Shown piece by piece: positions 2 to 929 of a stretch of 56,649 nt of DNA. Position 1 is the first letter of the stretch. The number at the start of each line of letters is the position of its first letter. Location: contig JANJXJ010000010.1 of NCBI GenBank assembly GCA_024709105.1, positions 1 through 56,649 of the forward strand, in the 5' to 3' direction. The DNA comes from Lentimicrobium sp. (GTDB lineage: Bacteria > Bacteroidota > Bacteroidia > Bacteroidales > Lentimicrobiaceae). The notes beneath the pieces are model-generated. The model did not search any database. It was given only the letters and a program-made list of their open reading frames with translations, and was not told the origin of the DNA. Made by a program: the position numbers and the translations under genes.

Positions 2-163
2 ACACCCGCCATTACCACCCGCGGATTAAAAGAAGAACATATGGGCATTATTGTTGACCTTATTGACGAAGTACTCAGCAATACCGAAAACGAAGCCGTG
101 ATTGAAAAAGTTCGCACCAATGTAAACGAACTGATGTCTTCCTTCCCGCTTTTTGCCTGGTAA
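2..163 (+). CDS. glyA: Serine hydroxymethyltransferase, C-terminal end (partial)
   Basis: The first 53 codons in frame 2 read as the C-terminal tail of serine hydroxymethyltransferase and stop at TAA 161-163. The fragment begins with TPAITTRG, the conserved segment that supplies the Arg of the small domain in GlyA. It then continues as two helices and ends in the typical 'FPLF' tail. GlyA converts serine and tetrahydrofolate to glycine and 5,10-methylene-THF, using pyridoxal phosphate in the cytoplasm. The catalytic lysine and the rest of the enzyme lie upstream of the window. The assignment rests on a short tail and is therefore good but not absolute. Confidence 0.85.
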   Translation, partial: TPAITTRGLKEEHMGIIVDLIDEVLSNTENEAVIEKVRTNVNELMSSFPLFAW

Positions 164-321: not shown

Positions 322-353
322 GTAAATAAATAAGCCCTCAAATGTGAGGCTTT
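322..353 (-). terminator. Terminator-like hairpin after the tRNA-Asp relic
   Basis: On the minus strand an AAGCCTCA/TGAGGGCTT hairpin (332-352, one bulge) is followed by a T-rich tail. It sits just 3' of the tRNA-Asp relic and closely parallels the hairpin following the intact tRNA-Asp (654-683). This suggests that it is the original 3' flank of a former tRNA gene. Confidence 0.6.
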
Positions 354-399
354 AAGCGGTCTCGTCACTTGTGACGAGATGACATGCCCGTATTCTAAC
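353..399 (-). pseudogene. tRNA-Asp relic with palindrome (copy A)
   Basis: Positions 380-399 match the D-arm to anticodon-loop part of the intact tRNA-Asp (722-741) at 18 of 20 bases. The sequence then jumps directly into a palindrome (360-379). It resumes as ACCGCT plus A-rich sequence, which is the end of the acceptor and the 3' flank of the intact tRNA (about 685-690). The anticodon 3' side, variable loop and T arm are missing, so this cannot be a functional tRNA. The stop codon of the GIY-YIG gene (397-395) lies inside the relic. Confidence 0.75.
360..379. repeat. Perfect 9-bp palindrome inside tRNA-Asp relic A
   Basis: TCTCGTCAC, two bases, then GTGACGAGA: a perfect 9-bp inverted repeat. 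A near-identical palindrome with a different loop lies at 808-827. Both join the tRNA-Asp anticodon-loop sequence at exactly the same base. It is probably a REP-like hairpin unit. Confidence 0.85.
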
Positions 400-652
400 T
401 GTCCATAGTTTTGTGTTTCATCACGAGCAGTTCAATAGATCTTCGATTGAGGCTTTTAAGTCTGTTTTCTTCAATCAGACAATCTCTTTTTTGTTCAAAG
501 GTATTTAGATACACTAGCGCCCACGGCCCTTTTCCGGCAGTGAACCGGCTTTTATTATTATTATGTTCCCAAAGCCTGTGTTCAGGATTTTGGGTAACAC
601 CTTTGTAATAGATGTCGTAATTTTCAGAGTAAATGATATAGGTATAATACAT
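395..652 (-). CDS. Small GIY-YIG nuclease-domain protein
   Basis: An 85-residue protein that is a single GIY-YIG (UvrC/Slx4-type) endonuclease domain. The GIY position is the variant YTYII (residues 3-7) and the YIG position is YYKG (15-18). The catalytic Arg is R26 in the helix 'HRLWEHNN', and the metal-binding Glu is E61 or E62. Length and motifs match the stand-alone UPF0213-like family, whose physiological substrate is generally unknown. The gene starts 33 bases after the 3' end of the intact tRNA-Asp, directly after that tRNA's terminator-like hairpin. It ends inside a tRNA-Asp relic: the last codons run into D-arm sequence that supplies the TAG stop. That position suggests an element that settles in or duplicates tRNA-Asp genes, which is inference. 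Confidence 0.88.
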   Translation of the reverse strand: MYYTYIIYSENYDIYYKGVTQNPEHRLWEHNNNKSRFTAGKGPWALVYLNTFEQKRDCLIEENRLKSLNRRSIELLVMKHKTMDS

Positions 653-653
653 A

Positions 654-683
654 ATAAAAAAAGCTCCCTATTGAGGAGCTTTT
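654..683 (-). terminator. Terminator-like hairpin between tRNA-Asp and GIY-YIG gene
   Basis: An AAAGCTCC/GGAGCTTT stem (660-667 with 675-682 on the plus strand) is followed on the minus strand by seven T. It begins 2-3 bases after the tRNA-Asp 3' end. The GIY-YIG ATG (652) follows the T run directly, so the gene would need readthrough or a promoter of its own. Confidence 0.8.
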
Positions 684-685
684 AG

Positions 686-759
686 CGGTCCGGACGGGAC
701 TCGAACCCGCGACCCCGTGCGTGACAGGCACGTATTCTAACCAACTGAACTACCGGACC
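686..759 (-). tRNA. tRNA-Asp (GTC)
   Basis: A 74-base cloverleaf. The acceptor stem is GGTCCGG/CCGGACC with discriminator G. The D arm contains AGTTCAGTTGGTTAG. The anticodon loop CTGTCAC carries GTC (Asp), and the T arm is CGGGTTCGAGTCCCG. CCA is not encoded. All stems pair. The transcript probably starts at the promoter 900-929, upstream of a disrupted copy of the same tRNA (793-865), and stops at the hairpin 654-683. It is the only intact one of three tRNA-Asp-derived sequences here. Confidence 0.97.
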
Positions 760-792
760 AATATTTTTAAGAACTGAGAATTATCCGAAGAG

Positions 793-865
793 CCTGGCTC
801 GAACCCGTCTCGTCACTCTTGACGAGATGACAGGCACGTATTCTAACCAACTGAACTACCGGACC
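793..865 (-). pseudogene. Disrupted tRNA-Asp copy with palindrome (copy C)
   Basis: On the minus strand the 5' acceptor strand, D arm and anticodon 5' half through the anticodon GTC and the following A (865 to 828) are identical to the intact tRNA-Asp. The ~20 bases upstream (AATATT...AAGAACT) are also shared. After TGTCA the sequence enters a perfect 8-bp palindrome (827-808) instead of the anticodon 3' strand and variable loop. It then resumes at the T arm (CGGGTTCGAG, with a mismatch after it). The 3' acceptor strand does not pair with the 5' strand. I infer a tandem tRNA duplicate whose middle was replaced. It cannot fold as a normal tRNA. Confidence 0.8.
808..827. repeat. Perfect 8-bp palindrome inside disrupted tRNA-Asp (copy C)
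   Basis: TCTCGTCA, CTCT loop, TGACGAGA. It has the same arms as the palindrome at 360-379 and the same left junction with TGTCA of the tRNA anticodon loop (minus strand). Its loop and right junction differ. Confidence 0.85.
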
Positions 866-899
866 AATATTCAGAAGAACTATCTCGTAATTGAGAGCG

Positions 900-929
900 C
901 AAAGATATACACATTTTTCGACTCTGCAA
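900..929 (-). promoter_or_regulatory. Bacteroidota-type promoter of the tRNA-Asp locus
   Basis: On the minus strand TTG (929-927), 19 bases, then TATCTTTG (907-900), which fits TTG-N19-TAnnTTTG very well. The predicted start at about 893 is ~28 bases before the disrupted tRNA-Asp copy C. Transcription should therefore cross copy C and then the intact tRNA. Confidence 0.75.

Follow-up and report, generated by a model that had tools for sequence, protein, structure and literature searches.

The described system closest to the element studied here is SegB of phages T4 and T6, which, like that element, is a free-standing GIY-YIG enzyme encoded beside tRNA genes. According to passages of the SegB report, the enzyme cuts inside tRNA genes and drives tandem amplification of tRNA/segB, its motif RAWTSGAAC occurs at 23 of 83 sites, and microhomology exists between the 5′ end of the tRNA and the 3′ end of segB (PMC13096335). 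By our reading, this motif is the complement of the T-loop. We analyzed a 56,649-nt stretch of Lentimicrobium sp. DNA (JANJXJ010000010.1, positions 1–56,649; hereafter the window), in which the locus under study, at positions 322–929, combines a small GIY-YIG nuclease gene with one intact and two broken copies of tRNA-Asp. Sequence comparisons suggest that this locus is probably one copy of a widespread kind of small, free-standing, homing-like element that invades tRNA genes. SegB is a phage enzyme, whereas the elements described here lie at tRNA genes of bacterial chromosomes, in several phyla, and form clades that track the tRNA isotype; palindromes do not appear in those passages of the SegB report, whereas the elements here are accompanied by tRNA relics broken by hairpins. 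As far as those passages go, SegB therefore provides a phage precedent for cutting and amplification, and none for the rebuilding and hairpin steps proposed below.

Integrative elements with tRNA attachment sites insert in a tRNA gene, rebuild the tRNA and carry a partial tRNA copy at their other end. The elements described here share the rebuilt tRNA and the partial copy, but they form a unit of about 315 bp without an integrase and with an 85-aa open reading frame (ORF) alone, either half of the tRNA can be the one rebuilt, and a hairpin lies in the partial copy. Bonocora and Shub reportedly described in 2001 a group I intron homing nuclease targeted to a tRNA gene; such endonucleases are likewise homing nucleases aimed at a tRNA gene, but no intron was seen at the elements here, and, with part of the stem gone, splicing could not restore the interrupted tRNA copy. 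Repetitive extragenic palindromes (REPs) with their associated tyrosine transposases (RAYTs), CGTC-tagged REPs and Rickettsia palindromic elements are short dispersed palindromes, as found here, and the CGTC REPs are described, in passages of the source, without a dedicated transposase (PMC3733652). In contrast to the REP/RAYT pairing, the neighbour here is a GIY-YIG gene and not a tyrosine (Y1) transposase (the rest of the genome was not searched for RAYT genes), and, unlike dispersed REPs, the palindrome family of this locus lies almost only in tRNA relics. A bare GIY-YIG domain, as here, is also found in UPF0213 proteins (BH0048 and EF2693) and in SLX1, which processes branched DNA according to Protein Data Bank (PDB) titles. 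A 2006 survey of the GIY-YIG superfamily refers to tRNA in three places, of which two are references and one concerns a TrmH-type fusion (PMC1564403). Among the open-licence PMC papers listed by our searches, we recognized no description of the arrangement; subscription journals and preprints lay outside this search, and its novelty is therefore provisional. The evidence points to a widespread and apparently undescribed type of selfish gene whose invasion of tRNA genes would leave the host alive.

All features of the locus lie on the minus strand. Read in that direction, a putative promoter is followed by a hairpin-broken tRNA-Asp relic, the intact tRNA-Asp, a terminator, the GIY-YIG gene, a second broken relic and another terminator. 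This is the order given by the original prediction, and ARAGORN, a repeat search, PF01541 and a terminator scan bore it out, including both palindrome-disrupted copies and both terminator hairpins. The intact tRNA-Asp (GTC; 685–759) is the single tRNA found by ARAGORN in the window and the sole full-length tRNA-Asp match in its genome. A terminator hairpin (659–683) separates it from the nuclease gene (395–652; 85 aa; PF01541, E = 3e-14), with 6 nt between the stem and the start of the ORF. The upstream relic consists of tRNA-Asp positions 1–38, identical (100%) to the intact copy (828–865), of the palindrome TCTCGTCA-AGAG-TGACGAGA in place of positions 39–50 (808–827), and of CGGGTTCGAGCC, which corresponds by eye to positions ~51–62, the copy being truncated after them (796–807); the same layout recurs in G011 (L230). 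The downstream relic extends from the D-loop to the anticodon loop (positions ~19–38; 380–399, by repeat search and by eye), continues with the palindrome TCTCGTCA-CAAG-TGACGAGA (360–379) and ends with the terminal 5 nt of the tRNA 3′ end (ACCGC; 355–359, by eye), where the related G013 locus (L130) retains the full positions 51–75. By eye, the nuclease ORF uses as its stop codon the TAG in the D-loop of this relic. The second terminator hairpin follows (331–354, stem 336–349).

Both relics are thus mostly tRNA sequence interrupted by TCTCGTCA, 4 nt and TGACGAGA. The repeat search detected the partial copies as 722–775 against 828–881 (54 nt, 94%) and 348–399 against 796–847 (52 nt, 85%). The palindrome pattern, with up to three mismatches, was present twice in the window for 0.08 expected (no instance with two in 100 shuffles), and two terminators were found for 0.3 expected. 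The “strong promoter” proposed upstream fared less well. No sigma-70 site was detected by a scan of 900–930, where a putative promoter of the tRNA-Asp unit, TTG ... TATCTTTG (a −33/−7 pair), was recognized by eye using what we take to be the Bacteroidota-type consensus. We infer that an earlier round left the upstream relic as a remnant without an ORF and that the downstream relic is part of the resident nuclease unit.

The same arrangement was found elsewhere in this genome. A PF01541 search yielded six places, and all three small intact GIY-YIG genes adjoin a tRNA (Asp, Pro and Asn, respectively) followed by a broken copy of that tRNA. In L012, the gene lies downstream of tRNA-Pro, and CCCCGCC-ATC-GGCGGGG interrupts the tRNA-Pro relic that comes next; in L013, the gene lies downstream of tRNA-Asn and extends into a tRNA-Asn relic that contains two hairpin-like inserts. 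No tRNA was found at the two longer GIY-YIG ORFs of the genome (L015 and L016). The remaining place, L017 (contig C236), is a short GIY-YIG fragment without a tRNA; at ~1520–1617 it is a fragment of a tRNA-Asn-type nuclease gene, near-identical to part of L013.

We used the three proteins of this genome to scan the 84,980-species GTDB collection and analyzed the best 80 of 363 confirmed matches (585 stretches). These belong to Bacteroidota, several Patescibacteria lineages, Cloacimonadota, Ignavibacteria, Omnitrophota, Desulfobacteraceae and others. The nearest tRNA or transfer-messenger RNA (tmRNA) was within 600 bp in 69 of the 80 loci, always on the strand of the gene, and within 60 bp in 51 of the 69; Patescibacteria, Cloacimonadota and Desulfobacteraceae are among the groups with linked members. 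The nearest RNA gene was a tmRNA in L080, L085 and L094. Among the matches listed for 60 relatives, 36 of 70 small GIY-YIG genes were tRNA-linked (36/36 on the same strand), and of 29 further loci taken from other Bacteroidota, 24 were linked, all on the same strand; two of the five unlinked ones (L363 and L372) have a tRNA 0.8–1.3 kb upstream. In comparison, GIY-YIG domains in long ORFs (UvrC-like by length) were never linked (0/20). As an association, the core of the original prediction, a selfish element that targets tRNA genes and has its small GIY-YIG gene next to them, is strongly supported.

We then built a tree of 147 proteins: those of the 80 GTDB loci, the three from the window's genome, the small hits of the 60 relatives (60 proteins) and four from loci anchored by an SPFH gene. 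Short or contig-edge fragments (L180, L189, L190 and L192–L195) and two of the three L156 copies were left out, and the G013 hit enters as L130. The tree splits (support 94) into one clade in which 104 of 123 rows are tRNA-linked and another in which none of 24 is; many inner forks are unresolved. The sister clade, which is presumably UPF0213/YhbQ-like, differs in this respect from the elements described here. Its small proteins (most ~94–127 aa) also have no Rfam RNA near the gene; members are L078, L095, L137, L138, L140–L144, L146, L148, L149, L152–L154, L158, L159, L165, L168, L170, L177, L181 and L187. Proteins of the linked clade are mostly 80–95 aa, and a profile of this clade, whose count may include sister-clade hits, matched 250 of 395 Bacteroidota genomes at E 1e-8 (linkage was checked for fetched loci only), several with at least 13 hits.

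The identity of the neighbouring tRNA follows the tree of the nuclease. Across 101 rows with 18 states, 43 isotype changes were needed, relative to a mean of 74.1 and a minimum of 66 in 300 shuffles. Among close relatives (33 rows), the isotype needed 12 changes (shuffled mean 23.3, minimum 19), whereas the genome of origin needed 24, near the shuffled values (mean 25.5, minimum 22). This suggests that the nuclease follows the tRNA more than the genome.

In the general layout of the linked loci, the nuclease gene lies between two tRNA copies. One of these is intact; its counterpart, when one could be recognized, is a relic of that same tRNA. A relic match above the 99% null, defined from control regions and the reversed tRNA, was obtained in 82 of 103 loci (56/73 with the intact tRNA upstream of the gene and 26/30 with the intact tRNA downstream). 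We further compared, for 81 loci, which end of the tRNA is kept; tmRNAs were excluded, as were tRNAs that were long or unnamed. Downstream of the gene, relics retain tRNA position 73 in 45 of 60 cases and position 1 in 3 of 60; upstream of it, all 21 relics retain position 1 and one of the 21 retains position 73. This polarity is the one predicted if the gene is inserted into one tRNA gene and the missing half is rebuilt. Of the 30 loci with an intact tRNA downstream, 18 show an overlap between this tRNA and the 3′ end of the gene. GC-rich hairpins other than terminators were present in 77 of 100 relic zones compared with 8 of 86 control zones. Among the 29 further Bacteroidota loci, 20 of the 24 linked ones had such a hairpin, one of them (L385) probably being a terminator. 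In the relics that we read by eye, the hairpins often take the place of one of the two strands of the anticodon stem or T stem.

Comparison of orthologous tRNA loci within the genus revealed sites with and without the gene. A GIY-YIG gene is present at 6 of 15 tRNA-Asp, 4 of 17 tRNA-Pro and 3 of 15 tRNA-Asn fetched loci, some of which end near a contig edge. The SPFH-anchored tRNA-Asp locus is occupied in the window's genome, in G012, in G013 and twice in G018. G005 has a flank in common with G013 and has only ~15 nt resembling the start of the gene left, and the locus of G009 is an inverted version with a truncated tRNA. In G006, the 3-kb locus contains tRNA-Asp and one terminator of near-same sequence as in the occupied loci, and no GIY-YIG gene. 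The original prediction assumed an ancestral tandem tRNA-Asp array; this part was not supported, since ORF-free relatives such as G006 carry a single full-length tRNA-Asp, which indicates that the extra copies arrived with the remodelling. The tRNA-Pro locus is occupied in the window's genome, G011, G018 and G009 and carries a solo hairpin relic in G001, G013 and G005; the tRNA-Asn locus is occupied in the window's genome, G018 and G011, with solo relics in G013 and G008. Tandem units also exist: the single-contig genome G353 has five near-identical 315-bp units after tRNA-Asp, and at least seven tight clusters of linked-clade genes were found among the matches listed. Two features expected of a homing endonuclease were therefore observed, a gene in or beside its presumed target and its presence or absence at orthologous sites.

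Based on these patterns, we propose that the nuclease would cut its cognate tRNA gene and that the break would be repaired by copying from an allele bearing the element. Along with the nuclease gene and a terminator, repair would insert as much of the tRNA as is needed to restore a functional copy, and an essential gene could thereby be hit without host death. Further cuts, or unequal recombination between the repeats, may then generate tandem arrays. The hairpin would prevent the spare copy, which overlaps the 3′ end of the nuclease gene in the window, from folding and being processed as a tRNA, and could also destroy it as a repeat target.

The AlphaFold model of the 85-aa window protein is a bare GIY-YIG fold (mean pLDDT 96.6). 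The closest solved structures by sequence profile and by fold are those of the UPF0213 proteins BH0048 and EF2693 and of SLX1, and the fold match together with the PF01541 match places the protein in the GIY-YIG superfamily. Residues that we take to be catalytic (Tyr, Tyr, Arg, His and Glu) are conserved in the linked proteins: Y5 in 102 of the 102 with a letter at this position, Y16, H30 and E62 each in 104 of 104 and R26 in 103 of 104. Twenty-nine ungapped pairs were used to estimate dN/dS, 19 of which were saturated or misaligned (pairs with L128, L185a or L033, misaligned without gaps, gave one value of 1.92, one of 0.64 and some infinite ones). The ten usable pairs gave 0.10–0.20 in the five with dS < 1 and 0.05–0.10 in the five with dS > 2; the nuclease gene is under purifying selection. 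An NCBIfam model of group I intron endonucleases weakly matched 24 of 55 members, the window protein not among them, and the three proteins of the window's genome had no PHROG match.

Several observations weigh against the homing-like reading. No tRNA was found for 19 of the 123 rows of the linked clade, and Rfam searches at gathering scores of tRNA-less loci (11, 20 and 12) yielded nothing beyond the tRNA already known in L147 and, ~2.7 kb away from the L095 gene, a pemK element. The tracking of isotypes is loose, with 43 changes for 18 states. A stricter relic null, built from the relic zones of other loci, was passed by 41 of 103 loci and by 4 of 85 control regions; this null is very strict because tRNAs resemble each other. 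No relic exceeded the ordinary null in 21 of the 103 linked loci, including all six rows of a tmRNA/Ala/Glu clade. Hairpin-broken Gly and Arg relics occur without a GIY-YIG gene in the fetched flanks. The window protein had no match in phage records, and one Aeromonas record in the plasmid set matched partially. The intact tRNA-Asp is identical (75/75) in the ORF-bearing window's genome, G001, G011 and G013 and in the ORF-free G006, G014, G016 and G009, which means that a nuclease cutting the tRNA sequence alone would cut the allele of its own host. Finally, unlike I-TevI, the 85-residue model consists of the catalytic domain only; a DNA-binding domain is not visible in it, and specificity for an isotype is therefore difficult to account for. 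A separate DNA-binding domain is not strictly required of free-standing homing endonucleases, and recognition of a structure, as by SLX1, or of the tRNA plus its flank may offer a way around both difficulties.

The tmRNA/Ala/Glu clade (L080, L085, L094, L054, L063 and L038, several from Patescibacteria) is linked to tmRNA, tRNA-Ala and tRNA-Glu; no hairpin family was recognized in it, and it possibly uses a different mode of insertion.

The pattern TCTCGTCA-3..25-TGACGAGA was found at 26 places in 10 of the 19 genus genomes searched, and its reversed control at none. We assigned 23 of the 26 places to tRNA relics (10 Asp, 10 Gly and 3 Arg). Read by eye, the hairpins of the Gly and Arg relics, like those of upstream Asp relics, take out one strand of the anticodon stem, and the loop stays. 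The three other places are a 23S helix of the window's genome, a match with a 25-nt loop (L224) and L231. An insertion of the hairpin into rRNA was considered for the 23S match (L001). The 23S locus had hits in 3 of 19 genomes, the window's genome included; the two others, G001 and G010, have a helix of different sequence and near-equal length at this position, and we therefore take the match as a native helix and a coincidence. L231 (1501–1520; G018:C65) is the only short-loop place in the genus outside tRNA and rRNA, in a region that gives the impression of a group II intron reverse transcriptase gene.

The original prediction viewed the nuclease and the palindromes as one element. Both are indeed present at the locus, but they do not form one fixed unit: 13 of the 26 palindrome places in the genus are the Gly and Arg relics, with no GIY-YIG gene in the flanks fetched, palindrome families differ between nuclease clades, and the most common family, TCCCGA..TCGGGA, is mostly dispersed, with 1 of 30 sampled places near a tRNA. 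It is possible, if on the unlikely side, that these are the two parts of a mobile system of an entirely new category. A minimal, structure-selective, SLX1-like GIY-YIG nuclease would recognize the DNA structure of a tRNA gene or of a hairpin, break tRNA genes and spread, besides itself, a non-autonomous unit of 70–110 nt, a tRNA stub plus hairpin, in trans; the ORF-less Gly and Arg arrays would then be derivatives resembling miniature inverted-repeat transposable elements (MITEs), and the tRNA duplication would be a built-in antidote through which the host survives.

An improbable alternative is that the hairpins are themselves the mobile units, moved in trans by the GIY-YIG nuclease as REPs are by RAYT transposases, the tRNA duplicates being only a frequent landing place. 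The hairpin family, hand-assigned to 76 of the 147 tree rows, follows the protein tree (12 changes; shuffled mean 37.5, minimum 33), and the presence of TCTCGTCA hairpins in ORF-less Gly and Arg relics would also be explained. Palindromes of the TCCCGA family are found at 0–80 places per genome (control 0–4), with a median of 14.5 in 20 genomes with linked nucleases against 2 in 40 without. Their number correlates with that of tRNA-type GIY-YIG genes, counted by hand, over 60 genomes (Spearman 0.67), but weakly within the genus (0.36; P = 0.13), the P values taking no account of kinship and phylogeny being uncorrected. The sampled palindromes are, however, away from tRNAs and also from GIY-YIG genes (2/30 near one), and three nucleases stand beside three different palindromes in a single genome.

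We find it rather doubtful that the gene has been domesticated by the host, the gene and the tRNA-like relic forming a regulatory or defence module that reads the state of the tRNA, with the relic as a non-coding RNA or decoy. Purifying selection and the conserved catalytic residues agree with such a function, as do the position of the upstream relic within the tRNA leader and the terminator directly 5′ of the ORF, which implies that expression would need read-through from the tRNA promoter. The presence of the gene is nevertheless patchy within one genus, with ORF-less and empty sites, its tandem copies are identical or near-identical, and the isotypes differ between genomes.

Transfer RNA genes are well-known insertion sites, and they could gather any small gene by duplication or illegitimate recombination, with no part played by the nuclease. 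This is very improbable given the lack of linkage of both the long-ORF proteins and the small sister clade, the same-strand rule without exception in linked loci and the tracking of isotypes by clades. A misassembly of repeats is hardly credible even though the assembly of the window's genome comprises 239 contigs, the one with L012 breaking off within the repeat, as the arrangement recurs in many independent genomes and species, including a single-contig genome.

If the homing-like reading is true, many bacterial genomes hold a selfish gene inside essential tRNA genes, and the idea derived from SegB extends from phages to chromosomes. The answer to invading an essential gene would be to rebuild the gene and break the spare copy. 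This would explain some tRNA pseudogenes and some small proteins annotated as “GIY-YIG domain”, and would provide natural minimal nucleases sorted by tRNA target.

Two strongly different types of tRNA-Pro(TGG) were found after tRNA-Ser in the genus (L308–L312 and L313–L324). The rarer type corresponds to the four genomes with an occupied tRNA-Pro locus plus the ORF-less G012, and this looks like the replacement of a tRNA gene. We considered such replacement as a general resistance allele and rejected it: tRNA-Pro differs strongly between ORF-bearing and most ORF-free genomes, but tRNA-Asp does not and tRNA-Asn hardly does, so that tRNA replacement is no general rule. In G006 (L321), a CRISPR-type repeat array (repeat about GTTGTGAATTGCTTTTGAATTGTATCTTTGAAGTATTGAGCACAAC) begins shortly downstream of tRNA-Pro. 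In L342 (G003:C10), tRNA-Asn is split by a run of N, with positions 1–49 on one side and 28–75 on the other, an assembly gap of a sort that an array of elements could cause.

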